Shown here: positions 25,779-53,506 of the stretch, piece after piece
How the letters are laid out: the number at the start of each line of letters is the position of its first letter
How positions within the stretch are numbered: position 1 is the stretch's first letter
Assembly: GCF_000215935.2 (NCBI RefSeq)
Contig: NZ_AFNU02000001.1
Span: 372,001-436,000 of the forward strand
DNA from: Haloplasma contractile SSD-17B
GTDB taxonomy: Bacteria > Bacillota_I > Bacilli_A > Haloplasmatales > Haloplasmataceae
Length of the DNA: 64,000 bases
Reading direction: 5' to 3'
The notes under the pieces: model-generated
Seen by the model: the letters and a program-made list of their open reading frames with translations, nothing else
Told to the model about the DNA's origin: nothing
Database searches by the model: none
Position numbers and translations under genes: made by a program

Positions 25779-25870
25779 GCTTTTGTCTCAATTTTGATGT
25801 AAAAATATGTCACCTATCCATTTTCAGTTTCATAAACTACTTATATGAAACCAATGGGTAGGTGATTTTT

Positions 25871-26713
25871 ATGTGTAAAATTTTAATTGTAAAGAATCAA
25901 GATGAACGATTAGTATATGTATTCGATTACCTTAAAAAACAGAACGTTCAGGTAATCATGATAACAAATGAAGATGATTTTAAGTCTGAACTTATCAAGC
26001 GAGATGTTGATGCAGTGATTTTACCCGTAAGAGGAGTGAGTGACCAAGGGGAAATTGATGGTACTGATATAATGCTATCAAAAGAGAACTTATTATTACT
26101 ACAAGGCAAAACACTATTTTCAGGTCTTTTAAATAGTCAATTTAATCAAATGTGCAAACAAGTTGGTGTTAAATTTATAACTTATTTGGATGATGATGTT
26201 GCCATTAAAAATAACTATATTACAGTTGAGGGTGTTATTTCACATATTACAAATTCAAGTAGACGCGCAATTCTAAATTCGAATACACTTGTTATAGGAT
26301 ATGGAAAACTCGGACAGATTACAGCTTCAGTTTTTAAGGAATTACAATCACATGTTACAGTCGTTGCTAGAAGTCAAAAAGATCGAATACATGCTAAGAT
26401 TTCAGGATTTGGCGCAATGAGTTATAATGACTTAATTTATAAAATAGACAGATACGACTTTATTATCAATACAGTACCTGCTCACGTAATAGATGAAATT
26501 CTTTTAGATAAATTATCAAAAACAAATGTAGAAATAATTGATCTTGCGAGTAAGCCATATGGCTTAAACCATGAACTAGCTAAAATTAAAAAAGTTGAAA
26601 CGACAATTCTTAAAGGGGTACCTGGTAAAATCGCTCCTAAAACATCTGGAGAATTAATCGCTATAAATGTAGTCAAATTTATATGCGGGGGGGATGATGA
26701 TGATAGCAGGTAA
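25871..26713 (+). CDS. dpaA: Dipicolinate synthase subunit A
   Basis: 280 residues. A Rossmann domain with VIGYGKLGQITASVF is followed by the DpaA signature LASKPYGLN and GVPGKIAPKTSGELIA. With DpaB it oxidises (hydroxy)tetrahydrodipicolinate to dipicolinic acid, the spore-core calcium chelator, normally in the mother cell. The ATG at 25871 follows TAGGTGA; the GTG at 25862 lies inside that site. It overlaps dpaB. Presence of the pair is a strong sign of spore-former ancestry. Confidence 0.93.
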   Translation: MCKILIVKNQDERLVYVFDYLKKQNVQVIMITNEDDFKSELIKRDVDAVILPVRGVSDQGEIDGTDIMLSKENLLLLQGKTLFSGLLNSQFNQMCKQVGVKFITYLDDDVAIKNNYITVEGVISHITNSSRRAILNSNTLVIGYGKLGQITASVFKELQSHVTVVARSQKDRIHAKISGFGAMSYNDLIYKIDRYDFIINTVPAHVIDEILLDKLSKTNVEIIDLASKPYGLNHELAKIKKVETTILKGVPGKIAPKTSGELIAINVVKFICGGDDDDSR

Positions 26714-27281
26714 AGAAAAATTGAGGATAGCGTTTGGAATTACTGCCTCTTACCATAAAATTAATGAAATTGTTCCCATAATTAAACGTTTAAAAGAATT
26801 TGGTCATATGGTAAGGTTATTTGTTACACCTAGTGTACTAAATTATAAAGAAATCAAGACATTAATAGAAGAGCAATTAGACGATGATTTAATTAGTGAT
26901 ATTGCTGACGCTGAACCCTTTGGTCCAAATAGTTCATTTGATTTAATGATTGTCGCTCCTCTTACTGGTAATTCAATGAGCAAGTTAGCAAATGGTATAA
27001 CCGATAATGCAGTACTAATGACAGCTAAAGGTGTACTAAGAAATGATAAACCCGTTATTTTAGCTATATCTACCAATGATGCATTGGGGTTAAACGGTGC
27101 TAACTTGATGAAACTAATGGTTAGCAAAAACATTTTCTTTGTTCCTTTTGGTCAGGATGACCCTGACAACAAACCCTATAGCCTTGTAGCGGAATTCAGC
27201 AAAATACAGGATACCATTCATCATTCAATTAACGGAAAACAGATACAACCCATAATTATTGGGAACGGTAAGAGTAACTAA
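26694..27281 (+). CDS. dpaB: Dipicolinate synthase subunit B (flavoprotein)
   Basis: About 193-195 residues; three ATGs in a row (26694, 26697, 26700) make the exact start uncertain, with the G-run just before serving as ribosome site. Flavoprotein fold with MIVAPLTGNSMSKLANGITDN and a C-terminal FVPFGQDDP segment. It overlaps dpaA by about 20 bases, indicating translational coupling. No asd gene follows, unlike Bacillus. Confidence 0.93.
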   Translation: MMMIAGKEKLRIAFGITASYHKINEIVPIIKRLKEFGHMVRLFVTPSVLNYKEIKTLIEEQLDDDLISDIADAEPFGPNSSFDLMIVAPLTGNSMSKLANGITDNAVLMTAKGVLRNDKPVILAISTNDALGLNGANLMKLMVSKNIFFVPFGQDDPDNKPYSLVAEFSKIQDTIHHSINGKQIQPIIIGNGKSN

Positions 27282-28576: not shown

Positions 28577-29692
28577 ATGTATAATAAGTTAATGACAACC
28601 TTGATTACTCCATGGGTTGAAAAAGAAGAAATAAACCTCCTTATATTGAAAAGTTTGATTAATCATTTAATTAGACTAAATACATCTACGATTTTATTAA
28701 CTGCTTCAAGCTTAGATTCACGTACGTTATCAAATGACGATAAGAAATACCTATATGAAGAAACAATCAAGATCGTTAATAATCGAACAGCGATTTATGC
28801 AGGTCTAGATTGCAACTGTGAGTGTAAGTCTCTTGTTTTTATAGAAAAGGTTGACCATCTTAAAATAGATGGTTATTTCATCATCATTCCTTACCATGGC
28901 ATAAGAGATTGTAAACGAATCATTCAGTTCATCCGTGATGTGAGAAAGTGTACATCTAAGCCAATCATCATTCGATTTAAATCCAAAGCAATGAAATCCG
29001 ATGTAATAATTAATTTGCTTGAAAAATTGTTATCAATAAAGGATGTAAATATAAAAGGATTTGAAGTAAGTAAAAAGAACCATGTAGCGATTACAAAATA
29101 CAAAAATAAAATTTGCAAAAAAAAATTTAAGATGATGATTCATAATCTTGAGTTTTATACCGGTGATGAACACCTTTTATTTGATGCAAATGTAGGGAGA
29201 GATGAAATCCTTAGACGATCTTCAGAGATTTATAAGATGAGTATGAGAACGTTTTATGAAATTTTAAAAACTCGCGAAGAGAAGAAGAGTAATGAAATTC
29301 TTGAACTCTATAAACAGAAATTTAAAGAGCTAACGGATAAAAATAATGTGATTCGAGTCAAGGACCAAATAAATCGTAGTGATGAAATTCACACAATCTA
29401 TAAAGCAGGTTATATAAAATATGCAACAGAACGAAGTATAGACTCAATCTTTCATTTAGCGGGAATTATGGATGGGAAAGATAAAGAATATTATGTACCG
29501 AAAGATCAAGAAAAAACGATTAATGACTTATTAGCAAATGTTGGATGTAAGTTTGAACAAGAACCTGGATATGTGAAAATAACACAGAAAAGTTTAAATG
29601 ATGAACGATTTAATCAGGTAAAATTTATAAAAGAAACGAGTTTAAATGATACATTATTCCGTTTTCTAGGGATATTTAATAAAGAGGGGTGA
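28577..29692 (+). CDS. DapA-like pseudoenzyme fused to an ACT-like tail shared with the adjacent aspartokinase
   Basis: 371 residues. Residues 1 to about 275 align with the true DapA encoded next (287 residues), nearly without gaps through residue 150. The DapA catalytic residues are replaced: Thr44-Thr45 by Ser-Ser, Tyr107 by His, Tyr133 by Arg, Arg138 by Ala, and the Schiff-base Lys161 by Glu163. The last 90 residues are absent from DapA and instead match the aspartokinase tail: EYYVPKDQEKTINDLLANVG with EPGYVKIT, versus FYYVDEDNESSIDIFLNNSG with EYGYVKIS. The frame is fully open with a good site (GGAGGG), so it is likely translated and not a decaying pseudogene. A regulatory or scaffold role is inference. 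Confidence 0.85.
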   Translation: MYNKLMTTLITPWVEKEEINLLILKSLINHLIRLNTSTILLTASSLDSRTLSNDDKKYLYEETIKIVNNRTAIYAGLDCNCECKSLVFIEKVDHLKIDGYFIIIPYHGIRDCKRIIQFIRDVRKCTSKPIIIRFKSKAMKSDVIINLLEKLLSIKDVNIKGFEVSKKNHVAITKYKNKICKKKFKMMIHNLEFYTGDEHLLFDANVGRDEILRRSSEIYKMSMRTFYEILKTREEKKSNEILELYKQKFKELTDKNNVIRVKDQINRSDEIHTIYKAGYIKYATERSIDSIFHLAGIMDGKDKEYYVPKDQEKTINDLLANVGCKFEQEPGYVKITQKSLNDERFNQVKFIKETSLNDTLFRFLGIFNKEG

Positions 29693-30811: not shown

Positions 30812-32503
30812 GTGACAAAAATTAAACACGCTAAAATAAGAATTTTTGCATTAGGCGGACTAGGCGAAAATGGTAAGAACATGTACGTAGTAGAGGTAAA
30901 CAACAATATATTTATATTAGATGCAGGATTAAAACACCCAAACGATGATCAATTAGGTGTAGATGTAATCATCCCAGACTTTACTTATTTAATTGAAAAT
31001 AAAAACCGAATAAGAGGACTTTTCCTTTCTCACGCTCACGATGACCATATAGGAGCAGTGCCGGATTTTCTAAAGAAAGTTAATGTGCCTGTATATGGTA
31101 CTAGGCTAACAATGGCATTAGTAGAAGATGCAATAAAAGATAATGGCATGAAGTTATCGGATTATCAATTAAATAAAATCAAATCAGATAATGTGTTAGA
31201 TTTCGGTGATACTAAAATCTCATTCTTTCCTACAACACACAGTATCCCTGATTCAATTTCAATTAACATCCATACTGTTGATGGTGTTATTGTCTACACA
31301 TCTGAATTTATTTTTGACCAGAATGTGGACAGGCGTTTTCAAACAAATTATAATCAAATTGCTGACATTTCTAGAGAAGGTGTTCTTGCCCTTCTTTCAG
31401 AAAGTTTGCTTGCGCATAAGCAAGGCCATACGAATAGTGAATTTATGCTTCGTCATGAAATAAATGACGCGATTGCAAATGCAGACGGTCGAATTATCTT
31501 CTCTGTATTTTCATCTGACTTACAGCGCATTCAAAAAATTATAGATACTGCAAACAACTATAATCGTAAGATTGCAATTATAGGTAGAAAAATGCAGCGG
31601 ATCGTTGACATTGCTGTTAAACTAGGATATTTGAAGTTCCCTACAAGTGGAATGCTTGTTAACTTAAAATACATAGACGATAATAATGATAACAACTTAC
31701 CGAATTTAGTGGTATTAGCAACAGGGGAACGCCATGAACCATTTGATAGTTTAGTTCGTATGACTAAACGCTATGACCGATTGATCCATATTCAACAGAC
31801 GGATACAATTGTTTTAGCAACACCACCTGTAACAGGAACAGAAATAAAAGCAGCTAGAACGACAGATTTATTATATCGAACAGGTGCAAAGGTAATAAAA
31901 ATTAATAAGAATTTACTTCCTTCAGCGAATGCAAGTGCTGAAGATATCAAATTAATGATGAATTTATTAAAGCCAAAATACGTAATCCCTGTTATCGGTG
32001 AATACCGTCAACAATATGCACAAGCTAAGATTGCACAGGAGATGGGATACGATATCGAGAATATACTGTTACTCAACAATGGAATGGTGGCAGAATTTGA
32101 TCAAGGAGACTTAGTCAACATTGCAGATGAAATAGAGGTGAATGAAGTACTTGTCGATGGTTTAAGTGTTGGTGAAGTATCAAACAGTGTACTAAACGAC
32201 CGTAAACTATTATCTCAAGATGGTATTTTACTTGCTATTGCTTCAATCGATGTTAAGAGTAAAAAAGTTATTGCCGGTCCTGAAGTCATTACACGAGGGT
32301 TCATCTATGTAAAAGATAACGAAGAGATGATCAATAAAGTACAATCAATCTTTATGAAAGAACTAGAGAACCATATTAAACCTGGTTCTAAGCATATTGA
32401 TTGGGGTAAACTTAAAAATGGTATCCGTGATAAAATTGGAAAATATTTATATAGACAAACAAAAAGACGTCCTATTGTATTACCAGTCATTAACGAATTA
32501 TAG
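30812..32503 (+). CDS. rnjB: RNase J2-like metallo-beta-lactamase/beta-CASP protein, active site partly lost
   Basis: 563 residues with the RNase J layout. The first zinc motif is kept (SHAHDDH, residues 73-79). The metal-bridging aspartate of the usual TGDFKFD is Glu (TSEFIFD, Glu165). The SGH motif near residue 371 reads SANAS, and the later IPVHGEYR reads IPVIGEYR, so two conserved histidines are missing. Location after dapA corresponds to rnjB in Bacillus, whose product is a weakly active partner of RNase J1. It is likely a structural partner in an RNase J complex. GTG start behind TAGGAGG. Confidence 0.85.
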   Translation: MTKIKHAKIRIFALGGLGENGKNMYVVEVNNNIFILDAGLKHPNDDQLGVDVIIPDFTYLIENKNRIRGLFLSHAHDDHIGAVPDFLKKVNVPVYGTRLTMALVEDAIKDNGMKLSDYQLNKIKSDNVLDFGDTKISFFPTTHSIPDSISINIHTVDGVIVYTSEFIFDQNVDRRFQTNYNQIADISREGVLALLSESLLAHKQGHTNSEFMLRHEINDAIANADGRIIFSVFSSDLQRIQKIIDTANNYNRKIAIIGRKMQRIVDIAVKLGYLKFPTSGMLVNLKYIDDNNDNNLPNLVVLATGERHEPFDSLVRMTKRYDRLIHIQQTDTIVLATPPVTGTEIKAARTTDLLYRTGAKVIKINKNLLPSANASAEDIKLMMNLLKPKYVIPVIGEYRQQYAQAKIAQEMGYDIENILLLNNGMVAEFDQGDLVNIADEIEVNEVLVDGLSVGEVSNSVLNDRKLLSQDGILLAIASIDVKSKKVIAGPEVITRGFIYVKDNEEMINKVQSIFMKELENHIKPGSKHIDWGKLKNGIRDKIGKYLYRQTKRRPIVLPVINEL

Positions 32504-32807: not shown

Positions 32808-34697
32808 ATGTCAAAAGAAAAATCACGAAAGTTAGTAAATGATGAAACAAAAGAAGGATTAATTTATTTTGAAATTTGGGGGATTGCACTTATTTTGTTA
32901 TCAATCATTATTATTTCGGAACTGGGGACCATAGGGGCTGCACTGTATGTCTTTATCAAGTTTGCATTTGGTGATTGGTACTGGTTAATTTTAATTTATC
33001 AATTTTACTATGGAATTATGCTAATTTTATATCATGAATTTCCTACCTATAAACTAATCAAAATTAGAGGGCTATTATTTATATTATCGGGTATTTTAAT
33101 TAATAGTCACTTTGCTATTTATCATACAGTCAATAATAATGACGGATTCTTTAATATAATTGGACAAACATGGAATGTGTACATGACTTATTTAGATGAT
33201 CCTAATGCTGACTTAATAACGGGTGGTGGCATAGTAGGTGCCGTGCTATTTCAAGTTGTATATACATTACTTGGAACTATAGGGACTTATTTTATAGCCT
33301 ATGCGTTATTACTCTTTGGAGTAGCATATGTATTTGAACGGACAATTTATGATCTTATTGGTGATTTATATGATGGCATAACGGGTGCTATTAGCGCAAT
33401 AAGAAATCGATTATTAAACGAATATAAAAAAATGAAAGATGTATCGAAAAAAAATAAAGAAGTCAAAAAGACAAAATTTGATATCTTTGATCATAATAAA
33501 GAAGTAGAAGATACAGAACTGGCTAGTGATGCATTTTTCGATCAAAAACTTACGTTAGATGATGAAGATGAAATTAGAGGGAAAGATAAAAAGAATGGAT
33601 TTACGGTTTTAAATCCCAAAATACTAGATACCTATGATAATAAAAATATATTAGATGGACAAAAAGAGTTAACGATTGGTAATGCGAAAGTAATCAATTC
33701 GTTTTTATCAGAATTTAACTTACATTTAGAAGTGAATGAGATTTATATTGGTCCAACGGTCTCAACTTATATCATTTATATCGATGAATCTTATAAAACT
33801 AAAAAGTTTTTCAACTTTAAGGAAGATTTAGAGTTAAAATTAAATTCTAAATCATTAAGAGCCTATCACAGTATTGAGGAAAGGCGAACATTAGTTATTG
33901 AAGTTCCTAATAAATACCGATACAAGATTAGCCTGCGTGAAGTATTAGAGGAACGAAAACGAGGAAAAAAAACGGGTCTACCTATTGGCCGTGATTACCG
34001 TGGTAAATTAAAAACGCTTAATTTAGAACGTAATAAAAATATTTTAGTTGTTGGGAATGACTTGGATAGTAAGGTTAATTTTTTAAAATGCTTTTTATTA
34101 TCGATTTTATATACCTATACACCTGAAGAATTTGAAGTCGTTATTTTTGATTCAACGAAATATGAGTTAAATGATTTCAGTAAACTCGATCATTTATTCT
34201 ATGAATTTACTACATTATTTAAAACATGTACACCTCTATTCATAAAACTGTATACGGAGATCAGACAACGATTTAATTTATTTCAAAAATATAGTTGTAG
34301 TACTATAGATGAATATAATGAGCGAAATAAGGAAAAACAAATGAAGCCAATTGTATTAATTATTAATGACTTTTCAGATCTTTATTTAAATAGAGGAGAG
34401 TATTTAAATTATCTAAATTATATTATGAATAATGGCAATAAAGTAGGTATTTATTTATTGTTTGCTACAAGCACTATTAGTGATAACTTATTCAAAAGTC
34501 ATCTGAAGTCGAGTTTTCAAACAATCGTTTCGTTTATGTTAAATGAAAAGGAATTATCATTAAAACTAATTGAAGAAGATGCTACTAAATTATTGAAGCA
34601 TGGAGACTGTTTGATTTATGAACGTGATGGTAATACTAGTAAACGAACACAAATAGCGACAATAAGTGATGATGACATTACTAATTCTGGTTTATAA
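32808..34697 (+). CDS. SpoIIIE/FtsK-like membrane protein lacking Walker motifs and gamma domain
   Basis: 629 residues. Four to five membrane segments lie in the first 175 residues, then a charged linker (200-290), then a region that follows the SpoIIIE/FtsK motor fold: IGPTVSTYIIYID (314-326), VIEVPNKYRYKISLREVL, LPIGRDYRGK. The Walker A position, normally GATGSGKS, reads VVGNDLDSKVNF (414-425), and Walker B, normally VDELADL, reads INDFSDLY (519-526). ATQRPS has become ATSTIS. The chain ends where the DNA-reading gamma domain should begin. It occupies the spoIIIE locus. It cannot be expected to hydrolyse ATP; function unknown. GTG at 32796 is an alternative start. Confidence 0.8.
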   Translation: MSKEKSRKLVNDETKEGLIYFEIWGIALILLSIIIISELGTIGAALYVFIKFAFGDWYWLILIYQFYYGIMLILYHEFPTYKLIKIRGLLFILSGILINSHFAIYHTVNNNDGFFNIIGQTWNVYMTYLDDPNADLITGGGIVGAVLFQVVYTLLGTIGTYFIAYALLLFGVAYVFERTIYDLIGDLYDGITGAISAIRNRLLNEYKKMKDVSKKNKEVKKTKFDIFDHNKEVEDTELASDAFFDQKLTLDDEDEIRGKDKKNGFTVLNPKILDTYDNKNILDGQKELTIGNAKVINSFLSEFNLHLEVNEIYIGPTVSTYIIYIDESYKTKKFFNFKEDLELKLNSKSLRAYHSIEERRTLVIEVPNKYRYKISLREVLEERKRGKKTGLPIGRDYRGKLKTLNLERNKNILVVGNDLDSKVNFLKCFLLSILYTYTPEEFEVVIFDSTKYELNDFSKLDHLFYEFTTLFKTCTPLFIKLYTEIRQRFNLFQKYSCSTIDEYNERNKEKQMKPIVLIINDFSDLYLNRGEYLNYLNYIMNNGNKVGIYLLFATSTISDNLFKSHLKSSFQTIVSFMLNEKELSLKLIEEDATKLLKHGDCLIYERDGNTSKRTQIATISDDDITNSGL

Positions 34698-35005: not shown

Positions 35006-35058
35006 AGCAATGTCGTAATTTGACTATTAAAAATATAAATTCAGATGGAGGTCATGAT

Positions 35059-36180
35059 ATGAAAAAGATATTATCAATTTTCAGTGTATTAACATTAACT
35101 TTTTTAATATCAGCTTGTGGTACACAAGTAGATGATTCAAAAGTTGGTATGGTTACAGACTCAGGAACAATCTCTGATAAGTCATTTAATCAAGGTTCTT
35201 GGGAAGGTATCAAACGATACGAAGAGGAAAATGCAGGAACAGACAATGCAATAACAACAAAATATCTTCAACCTCAAGGTGAAGCGAAAACTGACTACTT
35301 AAGTTCTATTCAAAACTTAGTAGATGCAGGATACGGTGTAATTGTAACGCCAGGTTTCAAATTCGAAACTGCGATTTATGAAGCTCAAGACTTACATGAA
35401 GATGTAAAGTTTATCTTAATAGATGGAGAGCCTCATAATCAAGATTATAGTGATTTCAAAACGAATGATAATGTAATCAATATTCTTTTTGCTGAACATC
35501 AAGCTGGATTCTTAGCAGGTGTTTCTGCTGCTCTTGAGACAGAAACTGGTAAAGTTGGATTTATCGGTGGTATGGAGATTCCTCCAGTTCAAAAGTTTGG
35601 ATATGGTTATGTAGCTGGAGTAGCGTATGCTAACGATAAATATAACTTAGATGTAAAAGTTGTTGATTATATTTACCAAGGTACATTCGATGATGTAGCT
35701 GCCGGACAAAACCTTGCAAGTGGAATGTATGCTAAAGGAATTGACATTATTTTCCATGCTGCTGGTGGAGTAGGTGTTGGTGTGTTTAATGAAGCTAAAG
35801 ACCGCGCTACAAACGGTGAAAATGTATATGTAATTGGTGTTGACATCAATCAATATGATGAAGGTATGTTAGCAGATGGATCGAAATCTGTAACGTTAAC
35901 TTCAGCTTTAAAACGTATTGACGTTGCATCACATGATTATGTAGCAAAGGTTCAAGAAGGTACATTTGAAGGTGGACAGACAGTAAGAATGGACATCACA
36001 AATGACGGTGTTGGATTACCAGCTGAAAATCCTAACTTAGCAGATGACACTGAAACAAAAGTTGCAGCAGCTAAGCAAGATATGATTGACGGTGATTATA
36101 CTGTTCCTGCTACTGGCGAGGAATTAGAAACATTCTTAACAGAATATGGATATACATCACCAGATGGTGTAAGTTACTAA
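35059..36180 (+). CDS. BMP/PnrA-family substrate-binding lipoprotein
   Basis: 373 residues. A signal peptide ends in the lipobox LISAC, so Cys is lipidated and the protein is tethered outside the membrane. The mature part is of the basic-membrane-protein (PnrA/Med/BmpA) family: KVGMVTDSGTISDKSFNQG, LQPQGEAKTDY, and HAAGGVGVGVF. Family members bind purine or other nucleosides. It heads a transporter cluster with an ATPase and two permeases. Its start has the site GGAGGT. A long hairpin after the stop probably lets it be expressed above the membrane components. Confidence 0.93.
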   Translation: MKKILSIFSVLTLTFLISACGTQVDDSKVGMVTDSGTISDKSFNQGSWEGIKRYEEENAGTDNAITTKYLQPQGEAKTDYLSSIQNLVDAGYGVIVTPGFKFETAIYEAQDLHEDVKFILIDGEPHNQDYSDFKTNDNVINILFAEHQAGFLAGVSAALETETGKVGFIGGMEIPPVQKFGYGYVAGVAYANDKYNLDVKVVDYIYQGTFDDVAAGQNLASGMYAKGIDIIFHAAGGVGVGVFNEAKDRATNGENVYVIGVDINQYDEGMLADGSKSVTLTSALKRIDVASHDYVAKVQEGTFEGGQTVRMDITNDGVGLPAENPNLADDTETKVAAAKQDMIDGDYTVPATGEELETFLTEYGYTSPDGVSY

Positions 36181-36224
36181 ACTAATAGTTAAATAGTATA
36201 GTAGTACAGCACACAATATAAACG

Positions 36225-36260
36225 AATTTATGGGGCAACTTAATTGTTGTCCCATAAATT
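36225..36260 (+). terminator. Hairpin between binding-protein and ATPase genes
   Basis: Fifteen paired bases, AATTTATGGGGCAAC with GTTGTCCCATAAATT (one G-U), loop TTAATT, but no proper T-tract (GATTTTCAT). It is more likely a partial terminator or an mRNA 3'-end stabiliser. Confidence 0.65.
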
Positions 36261-36411
36261 GATTTTCATATGACTTTTGGATTTATTTGTTCTAATAAAT
36301 TTAACTTCTATAATTATATCATTTTTTGGTTTAATATATGCATTGTGATTATAATAAATAATAGAACGATTAATAATCTGATCGAAAAATATCAAGTGAG
36401 AGAGTGATTAG

Positions 36412-37932
36412 ATGGAATACGTAGTTGAACTCTTAAATATTACAAAAGAATTTCCTGGAATAAAAGCTAATGATAATGTAACCTTACAACTTAAAAAAGG
36501 TGAGATACATGCATTATTAGGAGAGAACGGTGCAGGAAAATCGACTTTAATGAGTGTTTTATTTGGCTTATACCAACCTGAAGAAGGAAAAATCAAAGTA
36601 AATGGTCAAGAAGTTGTCATTGATAATCCTAATGTAGCAAATGATTTAAAAATAGGTATGGTACATCAACATTTTAAACTAGTACATAATTTTACTGTTA
36701 CAGAAAATATTGTTCTTGGGGATGAACCGAAATTAAAGTTTGGTCGAATTAATATAGATGATGCTGCTAAACGTGTAAAAGAACTATCCGAACAATACAA
36801 CCTTAAAGTAGATCCTCACTCGAAAATAGAGGATATAACAGTAGGAATGCAACAGCGTGTGGAAATACTTAAAATGTTATATCGTGATGCCGAGGTTCTT
36901 ATTTTTGATGAGCCAACGGCAGTGTTAACTCCACAAGAAATAGATGAACTAATGAACATTATGCATGACTTTGCGAATGAAGGAAAATCTATAATTGTTA
37001 TAACACATAAATTAAAAGAAATTAAAAAGGTAGCAGACCGTTGTACCATTCTAAGAAAAGGTAAATACATTGACACTGTTGATGTTAAAACAACTTCAGA
37101 GCAAGAATTAGCTGAAAAAATGGTCGGCCGCCATGTAAGTTTCGAAGTGAATAAAAAAGAACAAGAAGTAGGACAGAGTGTCGTATCGTTAAAAGACGTT
37201 AAGGTCTATGGTGAGAATGAAAAGTTAAAACTTAATGTCGATTCTCTTGATATAAAAGAAGGAGAAATACTAGGTATTGCTGGTATTGAAGGCAATGGGC
37301 AAACTGATCTAATTAATGTAATTAGTGGATTAACATATGCTGATGAAGGTGCTATTACATTCAATGGACAGGATATCACCAAGTTACCAATTAGAAAACG
37401 TGTTGAAGCGGGGATGGGACATATTCCTGAAGACCGTCACAGACATGGGTTAGTATTAGATTTTAGTTTAGAAGACAACTATATTTTAAAAACATATTAT
37501 AAGGAACCTTTTAGTAGTAATGGTTTATTAAACCATGAGCCAATCAGGGAAAATTCAGAAAAGTTAACAGAACGATTTGATGTAAGAAGTGGACAAGGTA
37601 GCGAAACGATCACTCGTTCAATGTCGGGTGGTAATCAACAAAAAGCAATTATCGCAAGAGAAATTTCGCGTGATCCTAACTTCTTAATTGCAGCTCAACC
37701 AACTCGTGGTCTAGACGTTGGTGCAATTGAATATATTCATGATGAAATTATTAGAGTTCGTGATACAGGTGGGGCAGTGTTACTTGTTTCATTAGAACTT
37801 GATGAGGTCTTAAACGTGGCAGACCGTATCGCAGTCATTTATGAAGGTGAGATTGTTAAAGTGGTTAATGCAAAAGAAACGGATCAAAATGAAATTGGAA
37901 TATTTATGTCAGGAGGGAAAAGCAATGGTTAA
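36412..37932 (+). CDS. Nucleoside-type ABC transporter, double ATPase subunit
   Basis: 506 residues with two ABC domains. The first has Walker A GENGAGKST and Walker B LIFDEPTAVLT. The second has the degenerate Walker A GIEGNGQTDL and a signature SGGNQQKAI, the standard asymmetry of the sugar/nucleoside (RbsA/NupO-like) class. It powers the two permeases encoded next. Overlap of eight bases with the next gene indicates coupling. A possible promoter is TTGGTT-18-TATAAT at 36326-36355. Confidence 0.93.
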   Translation: MEYVVELLNITKEFPGIKANDNVTLQLKKGEIHALLGENGAGKSTLMSVLFGLYQPEEGKIKVNGQEVVIDNPNVANDLKIGMVHQHFKLVHNFTVTENIVLGDEPKLKFGRINIDDAAKRVKELSEQYNLKVDPHSKIEDITVGMQQRVEILKMLYRDAEVLIFDEPTAVLTPQEIDELMNIMHDFANEGKSIIVITHKLKEIKKVADRCTILRKGKYIDTVDVKTTSEQELAEKMVGRHVSFEVNKKEQEVGQSVVSLKDVKVYGENEKLKLNVDSLDIKEGEILGIAGIEGNGQTDLINVISGLTYADEGAITFNGQDITKLPIRKRVEAGMGHIPEDRHRHGLVLDFSLEDNYILKTYYKEPFSSNGLLNHEPIRENSEKLTERFDVRSGQGSETITRSMSGGNQQKAIIAREISRDPNFLIAAQPTRGLDVGAIEYIHDEIIRVRDTGGAVLLVSLELDEVLNVADRIAVIYEGEIVKVVNAKETDQNEIGIFMSGGKSNG

Positions 37933-39025
37933 GAAGAAAAAGAATTTATCAGAATACAGTAACATACTAGCACCACTTATTTCCATCTTCTTAGGTTTTT
38001 TAGTAGGTGGAATTATTATGCTTTTCCTAGGTGAAAATCCAATAATTGGTTTTATAAATATATTCCGTGGTGGTCTATTTAATGGTCTGTTTCAAGGTAA
38101 CTTTTTAAGATTAGGAAATACACTACTACATGCAACGACGTTAACCCTCACAGGACTTGCTGTTGCGTTTGCATTTAGAACTGGATTATTTAATATCGGT
38201 GTCTCAGGGCAAATGTTGTTTGGTGGGTTTCTAGCAGTTTATGTCGGTGTAGTTGTCGATTTACCTAAAATCATTCACTTACCACTTGCAATTATTGTAG
38301 CTATACTAGGTGGTGCATTGTGGGCATCAGTTCCTGCTATATTGAAAGCACGTTACCGAATAAATGAAGTTGTTACAACCATTATGATGAATTATACGGC
38401 TATGTGGGTCGTAACATATTTTATTAAAACACAAATTGTAGGCGAGTTTAGTACAGAATCTAAGTACGTAAGAGAGACTGCATCGTTAACTACAGCATTT
38501 ATGTCTCGTTTATTTAACAATTCCGATGTCAACATAGGTTTATTTTTAGCTATTATAACGGTTGGAATTGTTTGGTTCATATTAGAGCGAACAACTTTCG
38601 GTTATGAATTAAAAGCAACAGGTTTTAATCATGATGCAGCGAATTACGCCGGTATGAATGTAAATCGTAATATATTTCTTTCCTTTGTAGTTTCAGGTGC
38701 AATAGCAGGTCTAGCTGGTGCTACACACTACTTAGGTTATATGCAACATATAAAGGTTGCCCAACTTCCTACACAAGGGTTTGATGGGATCGCTGTTGCT
38801 TTATTAGGACTAAATAATCCTATTGGAGTATTATTGTCAGCAATTCTTTTCGGAGTACTTCGTGAAGGTGGTCAATTCTTAAGTGCTTTTCAAGATATTC
38901 CAAAAGAATTTGTTGATATTATTACTGGATTAATCATTTACTTTGCTGCAATTAGTTTATTAATTAGAAATATTATTGATAAAATATCTAAAAAGAAAGA
39001 AACAGAGGTGAAGCAAAATGATTGA
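37925..39025 (+). CDS. Nucleoside-type ABC transporter permease (NupP-like)
   Basis: 366 residues with eight to nine membrane segments and the BPD_transp_2 family motif region GLFNIGVSGQMLFGG plus GFNHDAANYAGMN. The ATG at 37925 (site GGAGGG) is chosen; an earlier in-frame start at 37841 lies inside the ATPase gene. It overlaps both neighbours by eight bases, so the four importer genes form one translationally coupled unit after the binding protein. Confidence 0.92.
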   Translation: MVKKKKNLSEYSNILAPLISIFLGFLVGGIIMLFLGENPIIGFINIFRGGLFNGLFQGNFLRLGNTLLHATTLTLTGLAVAFAFRTGLFNIGVSGQMLFGGFLAVYVGVVVDLPKIIHLPLAIIVAILGGALWASVPAILKARYRINEVVTTIMMNYTAMWVVTYFIKTQIVGEFSTESKYVRETASLTTAFMSRLFNNSDVNIGLFLAIITVGIVWFILERTTFGYELKATGFNHDAANYAGMNVNRNIFLSFVVSGAIAGLAGATHYLGYMQHIKVAQLPTQGFDGIAVALLGLNNPIGVLLSAILFGVLREGGQFLSAFQDIPKEFVDIITGLIIYFAAISLLIRNIIDKISKKKETEVKQND

Positions 39026-40022
39026 TTTAATTTGGGATCTTTTATTACTCGCAATTCCTAGTGCATTAATCTATACTTCTATTTTATTAATAACTTCGTT
39101 AGGTGGGTTATTTAGTGAAAGAAGTGGTGTTGTAAATATAGGACTTGAAGGATTAATGTTAATCGGTGCCTTTGCTTCTACTATAGTAATCTGGTTTTGG
39201 CAAGGTGGTAATGGAGACGGTCAGGGATTATTACGTACTGTAGAAAATCCTCAAGTTTTTGTTTGGATCGCTGTATTAATCGGTGGTTTAGCAGGTGGCC
39301 TTTTCGCAGTGCTTCATGCCGTTGCATCGGTTAGTTTAAAAGCAGATCAAGTTATTTCAGGTACTGCAATTAATTTATTAGCTACGGGGTTAACAATCTT
39401 TTTAGCTAAAGCGATTGCAGGAAGCCAAACTATTCCAATAGACTATAACTTAACTAAAATTAGTGCTATACCACTTTTATCTAGAATACCGATTATAGGA
39501 CCGTTACTCTTTTCTAACAATCAACTATCAACTTATATCGTGTTCTTATTCGCAATCCTAGTTTGGTATATTATCTTTAAAACATCTTTTGGTTTACGTC
39601 TGCGCTCATGTGGTGAGTTCCCGCAAGCAGCCGATTCGGTAGGGATTAGCGTAACCTTTACACGCTATCGTGCTGTTATTATATCAGGTATCTTAGCTGG
39701 TATCGGAGGTGCTCTTTACATGATGACCATTACAAGAGAATTTTCTGGTACTGTAAAAGGACTTGGATTCCTAGCACTAGCTTCTCTTATATTTGGTAAA
39801 TGGAGACCAATTAATGTCATCGGTGCTACATTCTTCTTTGGGGTGATGTACACATTGGGATCGTACGCAAGTGTATCAGAAGCATTGGGTAAAATAAATT
39901 TACCACAGGAATTCTATAATGCGTTACCATTCGTAATGACGCTAATTGCATTATTAGTTTTCTCTAAAAATGCTGCTGCACCTAAAGCTTTAGGAGAACC
40001 ATATGACCCAGGTAAACGTTAA
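39018..40022 (+). CDS. Nucleoside-type ABC transporter permease (NupQ-like)
   Basis: 334 residues, the second permease of the pair, with the family motif GVVNIGLEGLMLIGAF and CGEFPQAADSVGI. Start behind GAGGTGA, overlapping the preceding gene by eight bases. A terminator follows. Substrate inferred from the PnrA-type binding protein and from homologous Bacillus/Lactococcus guanosine or general nucleoside importers. Confidence 0.92.
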   Translation: MIDLIWDLLLLAIPSALIYTSILLITSLGGLFSERSGVVNIGLEGLMLIGAFASTIVIWFWQGGNGDGQGLLRTVENPQVFVWIAVLIGGLAGGLFAVLHAVASVSLKADQVISGTAINLLATGLTIFLAKAIAGSQTIPIDYNLTKISAIPLLSRIPIIGPLLFSNNQLSTYIVFLFAILVWYIIFKTSFGLRLRSCGEFPQAADSVGISVTFTRYRAVIISGILAGIGGALYMMTITREFSGTVKGLGFLALASLIFGKWRPINVIGATFFFGVMYTLGSYASVSEALGKINLPQEFYNALPFVMTLIALLVFSKNAAAPKALGEPYDPGKR

Positions 40023-53239: not shown

Positions 53240-53288
53240 TTGTAACTATATACTATATACAGATAAAAAAATCCATATCATATGAAAA

Positions 53289-53506
53289 ATGTCGACGGAG
53301 AAGAGTAAATTATCTCAAACTTCTAGAGAGGAATTTTCTTGGCTGAAAAAAATTCTAAGTCTATGAGTAATTGAAGCTACTCCCGAGTGTAGTTAATACC
53401 TACCGGTTCATACCGTTATCTTTTTGAGTTGCTGATTGTTATAATCAGAATTAGGGTGGTACCGCGATGAATGATTCGTCCCTTACATTGTTAAGGGACT
53501 TTTTTA
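53289..53506 (+). promoter_or_regulatory. T-box riboswitch (alanine tRNA)
   Basis: The conserved T-box sequence AGGGTGGTACCGCG is at 53453-53466; its UGGU would pair with the tRNA ACCA end. Upstream is the stem I region with a GAGAGGAA motif, and a GCT (Ala) triplet at 53376-53378 in GAGTAATTGAAGCTACTC is the likely specifier. The transcription terminator (GTCCCTTA and TAAGGGAC arms, 53478-53498, T run to 53505) follows. Uncharged tRNA-Ala would stop termination and induce alaS. Confidence 0.95.

Follow-up and report, generated by a model that had tools for sequence, protein, structure and literature searches.

We examined a window of 64,000 nucleotides from Haloplasma contractile SSD-17B, by which we mean the whole stretch of DNA analysed, numbered from its first letter. 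At its spoIIIE locus lies a gene of the FtsK/SpoIIIE family (32808 to 34697, forward strand) that starts with ATG and runs for 629 codons (629 amino acids) without an internal stop. The gene order is spoVFA-spoVFB-dapG-dapA-rnj-[window gene]-nup genes-nadA-nadB, which, the nad genes excepted, we take to be the order of the B. subtilis spoIIIE region. The names spoVFA/spoVFB, RNase J, and nupN/nupO-like follow that same region. The order was kept in the Haloplasmataceae genomes whose contigs reach far enough, and its core was kept in a second family (f11), where an intact FtsK with four transmembrane segments (4TM) occupies the spoIIIE place, between RNase J and the nup genes. Because the locus order is kept and the intact 4TM FtsK of f11 sits in the same place, the window gene is the positional orthologue of spoIIIE. 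A promoter scan returned no more than expected by chance. The features were as follows.

25862 to 27281 (+), spoVFA and spoVFB, encoding subunits of dipicolinate synthase, forming the upstream end of the locus (conserved order)
30812 to 32503 (+), RNase J gene, directly upstream of the window gene (conserved order)
32808 to 34697 (+), pseudo-SpoIIIE, a 4TM FtsK/SpoIIIE-family protein of 629 aa that lacks Walker A, Walker B, and the gamma domain (ORF, Pfam, alignment, model)
32808 to 33377 (+), four-TM membrane domain, residues 1 to 190 (hydropathy, alignment)
33378 to 33617 (+), variable linker, residues 191 to 270 (alignment; model pLDDT <50 at 221 to 263)
33618 to 33962 (+), FtsK alpha domain, residues 271 to 385 (Pfam PF17854, structure match)
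33963 to 34694 (+), beta (RecA-like) domain, residues 386 to 629, fold retained and catalytic motifs gone (Pfam, alignment, model)
34053 to 34076 (+), Walker A position, GNDLDSKV in place of GATGSGKS (alignment with 24 intact FtsKs, DNA)
34365 to 34382 (+), Walker B position, NDFSDL in place of DELADL, so that IIDELADL reads IINDFSDL (alignment with 24 intact FtsKs, DNA)
35020 to 40022 (+), genes for a nupN-like lipoprotein, a nupO-like ABC ATPase, and two permeases, immediately downstream of the window gene (order conserved in Haloplasmataceae and f11)

Two further features of the window were recorded. A T-box leader was found at 53283 to 53486 (+; 110 bits). The ORF at 28577 to 29692 (+) encodes another DapA, in degenerate form, with 29% identity to the product of the intact dapA downstream; its catalytic-lysine segment reads GFEVSKK where GIKESSG is expected, and its last ~95 residues are similar to the C-terminal domain of the aspartokinase encoded by dapG next to it (31%, E 8e-12). 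Judged by its sequence, this ORF is a pseudo-DapA with an aspartokinase-type regulatory domain.

Retained domains and missing motor motifs

The N-terminal domain of the window protein has four hydrophobic segments by hydropathy, with helices also in the structural model. The Pfam family FtsK_4TM matched the window copy with an E value of only 0.38, the best value among 12 relatives being 2.3e-05, and the matches above cut-offs were FtsK_SpoIIIE (4.5e-14) and FtsK_alpha (3e-13). Among the motor-dead copies described below, the membrane domain was the best-conserved part, with FGDWYW, GGG, and the invariant residues E22, D56, H76, and H101 in 12 aligned copies. The structure predicted from a 34-sequence alignment had a mean pLDDT of 86 and superseded an earlier model from seven sequences (pLDDT 55). 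Residues 267 to 629 superposed on the FtsK motor with a Z score of 40 and an rmsd of 2.6 Å over 362 residues. Since the 34-sequence alignment includes intact FtsKs, the model may lean toward the active fold; read with this bias, it predicts that the alpha-beta motor fold is kept and its chemistry lost.

The alignment that placed the two Walker positions also showed ATSTIS at the position of the ATQRPS motif. No intact P-loop was found elsewhere in the window protein by sequence or alignment, and in the model the strand at 411 to 415 is closely followed by the helix at 419 to 436. Downstream of the ORF there was no gamma domain in any frame; when a genuine gamma domain was compared with the entire window by tblastn, the best match had an E value of 0.47 and lay elsewhere. 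We therefore rejected a displaced P-loop, or a shifted frame bearing the motor or gamma domain, as none was found by sequence, model, or tblastn. The initial annotation had described a SpoIIIE/FtsK homologue at the spoIIIE locus that lacks Walker A, Walker B, and gamma and stops before the DNA-orienting domain; motif alignment, synteny, and tblastn bear out this description, as does an ORF that ends before gamma with no gamma match downstream. The superposition on the FtsK motor that it had proposed as a check gave the fold match above, with no P-loop displaced within the chain. From its sequence, the window protein is predicted to be unable to hydrolyse ATP or to act as an ATP-driven pump.

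An intact soluble FtsK elsewhere in the genome

A search of the same genome (G000) returned two FtsK_SpoIIIE matches, the window gene and an intact protein of 926 aa at 304.3 kb of C1 (C1:304 kb). A true FtsK elsewhere in the genome had been suggested in the initial annotation, and this is where it was found; loss of FtsK function from the genome was thus rejected. The C1:304 kb protein has GSTGSGKS and DELADL as well as a gamma domain, lacks TM segments, and so has the characters of SftA (soluble, with Walker motifs and gamma), whereas the window protein, with its TM segments and without the motifs, does not. The gene for the C1:304 kb protein is preceded by pepV, trmB, and a gene for glutamyl aminopeptidase, and the gene for the soluble FtsK of another genome (G039) has trmB upstream and murC downstream; pepV, trmB, the aminopeptidase gene, and murC correspond to the sftA neighbourhood of B. 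subtilis.

The intact FtsK copies checked in genomes of Haloplasmataceae, f3, and f5 had no TM segment. Those of f3 had EE at Walker B instead of DE (L057 and L052; G009 and G021). Across 296 genomes searched with a membrane-domain profile, motor-dead and intact 4TM genes were never found together, and there was one profile match per genome except for one genome with two dead copies. In G263, two nearly identical motor-dead SpoIIIE contigs (L087 / L075, L077) reflect either a strain mixture or a duplication. None of the dead-copy genomes had an intact membrane SpoIIIE, and in most of them one intact full-length FtsK, soluble, was found. A complete soluble FtsK was not recovered in three fragmentary carriers (G007, G201, and G215).

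Distribution, constraint, and co-inheritance with sporulation genes

Relatives of the window gene were found by an alignment-based scan of genome contigs, mostly drafts and many of them MAGs; a single-protein scan gave no match. In total, short copies were identified in 38 genomes of five families, namely, all eight sampled Haloplasmataceae (f1) and 30 genomes of four other families. They were 516 to 640 aa long, that of G007 being divided by contig ends, and GK[ST] and DE were absent from all 38. In f3, f5, f16, and f21, a convergent ORF of ~407 to 416 aa often adjoins the motor-dead gene (e.g., L182, 6873 to 8120); the one tested, that of L182, resembles RarA-type AAA ATPases.

In all Haloplasmataceae copies, the position of the P-loop lysine (K422) is retained, mostly as GNDxxSK[I/V], with the flanking glycines and S/T lost, and the DE of Walker B is ND. 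The lysine and the NDF motif, invariant in the aligned copies of this family, might bind nucleotide without hydrolysis and act as a switch. We consider this quite unlikely, given that the lysine is missing from 30/30 motor-dead copies outside the family and that, within the protein itself, the magnesium-binding S/T and the P-loop glycines are gone and the loop is shortened in the model.

The dN/dS ratios of the dead copies ranged from 0.03 to 0.31 in comparable close pairs (0.084 and 0.105 for Haloplasmataceae pairs), with many dS values near saturation. Intact copies gave 0.06 to 0.11, so the dead copies were similar or somewhat higher. Mean pairwise identity of the membrane domain versus the beta domain was 0.36 versus 0.24 in dead copies and 0.25 versus 0.63 in intact 4TM copies, and this reversal indicates that constraint has shifted from the motor to the membrane domain. 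Positions invariant in active motors were retained in 37% of cells in Haloplasmataceae and 25% elsewhere. A tree of the membrane domain grouped all dead copies, although weakly (75/26); a grouping of Haloplasmataceae with f11 was not rejected (p 0.13), and one loss of the motor and two losses are both compatible with these data.

That the gene is degenerating without function might be argued from the loss of the motor motifs and the fast divergence of the motor outside Haloplasmataceae. With 38 open frames in five families, no frameshifts or stops seen in close relatives, dN/dS well below 1, and a conserved membrane domain, we regard this as very improbable and rejected a decaying pseudogene. 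The initial annotation had read the long open frame as a sign of selection, and by its low dN/dS the gene is indeed under purifying selection; it had also named decay in relatives as evidence against its reading, and the survey of conservation and dN/dS saw none.

The same data bear on a second alternative, in which the dead protein would be a subunit of mixed hexamers, assembling in one ring with the soluble SftA-type motor as a membrane anchor or regulator. Rings of SpoIIIE/FtsK work with non-consecutive inactive subunits (PMC4728128), and since inactive subunits are tolerated, mixed rings are possible in principle. The alpha and beta fold kept in the model of the window protein would suit such a ring, and in Haloplasmataceae the dead motor is under as much constraint as the membrane domain, with K422, N520, and D521 kept. 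Outside this family, however, the beta domain has a mean identity of 24% and keeps 25% of the active-invariant positions, and because of this divergence a ring interface shared with SftA is doubtful there. Overall, we judge mixed hexamers to be unlikely, if worth keeping in mind.

We then compared the presence of the gene with that of sporulation markers, from which sporulation capacity was read in these draft genomes. SpoIVA was found in 36/38 carriers and 1/21 non-carriers in the five families (contaminated genome G283 excluded), and SpoIVA or SpoIIE in 38/38 versus 1/21; since SpoIIE is present in both carriers that lack SpoIVA, every carrier has at least one sporulation marker. On the rpoB tree, the sporulation marker changed 10 times and the motor-dead gene eight times. 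Seven independent contrasts on well supported rpoB branches went in the same direction four to seven times, depending on pairing, and never in the opposite one; with only ~7 contrasts available, the sign test is borderline (median p 0.06). Genera g43 and g64 each include one member without the gene and without both sporulation markers. The motor-dead SpoIIIE disappears together with sporulation genes, in repeated joint losses. One genome, G098, is an exception with SpoIVA and SpoIIE present and no pseudo-SpoIIIE detected, so the gene may be dispensable or may have been missed in this 180-contig assembly. Independent losses of sporulation have been described in related orders of Bacilli (PMC10868615). 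SpoIIIAA (TIGR02858) was unusable as a marker, falling below the cut-off in 62/62 genomes, including those with SpoIVA and SpoIIE; its absence suggests that the SpoIIIA channel is modified or missing.

Membrane domains of SpoIIIE and FtsK localise to septa. This, and the conservation of the gene throughout Haloplasmataceae, would suit a scaffold in the membrane that serves normal cell division and has no particular tie to sporulation, as the initial annotation had imagined for division sites generally. Gene presence instead tracks the sporulation genes, and the gene is lost with them though cell division goes on, which makes such a scaffold an improbable account. A role at the sporulation septum fits better than a vegetative one, because the gene follows the sporulation genes and has been lost from non-sporulating relatives in which the soluble FtsK is kept.

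Proposed role and comparison with known systems

In textbooks, SpoIIIE is the pump of sporulation, which in Bacillus moves the chromosome into the forming spore. A channel or fission role of its membrane domain, independent of the motor, has long been debated from mutants. A gene that has lost its motor, kept its membrane domain, and been lost along with sporulation genes is a natural evolutionary experiment in separation of function, and it raises the question of how the forespore chromosome is moved when a soluble FtsK is the sole intact FtsK. A search of the open-licence literature returned no description of a SpoIIIE family that is motor-dead in nature.

The explanation we favour, and hold to be slightly better than an even bet, is that a natural ATP-dead SpoIIIE has been retained for sporulation, to form a septal channel or take part in membrane fission, while SftA does the pumping; the septal location, the fission or channel role, and the cooperation with SftA are parts that we infer. 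On this view, the membrane domain would assemble, in the polar septum of sporulation, a channel or ring that parts the two membranes enclosing the trapped chromosome. The alpha-beta domain, without catalysis, would act as a docking ring or anchor, and the soluble SftA-type motor would move the DNA into the forespore, so that the pump is divided into a membrane part and a motor part. In B. subtilis, SpoIIIE-ATP(-) still allows fission of the septal membrane, which depends on the transmembrane domain, but does not support translocation (PMC4423119). SftA has no transmembrane domain and is unable to rescue septum-trapped DNA (PMC4744071), and for both reasons it would need a membrane partner. The occurrence of a natural ATP-dead SpoIIIE beside an active SftA suggests a division of labour, with the membrane task in one protein and pumping in the other. 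Against cooperation, B. subtilis suppressors of SpoIIIE-delta-gamma did not need SftA (PMC4744071), so that cooperation between SpoIIIE and SftA is hypothetical.

A more specific version, a forespore pump split in two across five families of Bacilli, we put forward tentatively, as conceivable rather than probable. In all five, the motor-dead SpoIIIE would supply the septal channel and membrane fission, and a separate soluble SftA motor would thread the chromosome through or past it. If so, channel and motor, which are fused in B. subtilis SpoIIIE, would act as two proteins.

Compared with known systems, the window protein shares with B. subtilis SpoIIIE the locus order, the 4TM domain, the linker, the alpha and beta fold, and an occurrence in genomes with sporulation genes, but unlike it lacks Walker A, Walker B, ATQRPS, and gamma, the C-terminal domain that reads SRS/KOPS. 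Laboratory ATP-dead SpoIIIE (SpoIIIE-ATP-, SpoIIIE36 type) likewise has an intact membrane part and an inactive motor; the window protein differs in being natural and long conserved and in also lacking gamma and most catalytic residues. SftA, the soluble FtsK paralogue of Bacilli, has a homologous alpha-beta core yet is the opposite of the window protein, as it keeps the Walker motifs and gamma and has no TM segments. The FtsK motors of P. aeruginosa and E. coli (2iuu, 6t8b, 2ius) have the fold predicted for residues 267 to 629 of the window protein at an identity of only 22 to 24%, but are active ATPases with gamma. The T7SS proteins EssC/EccC and the TcpA coupling proteins have a related RecA-like fold that matches more weakly (Z 26 to 28 versus 40 for FtsK); they differ in domain layout and locus, and the spoIIIE synteny argues against placing the window protein among them.
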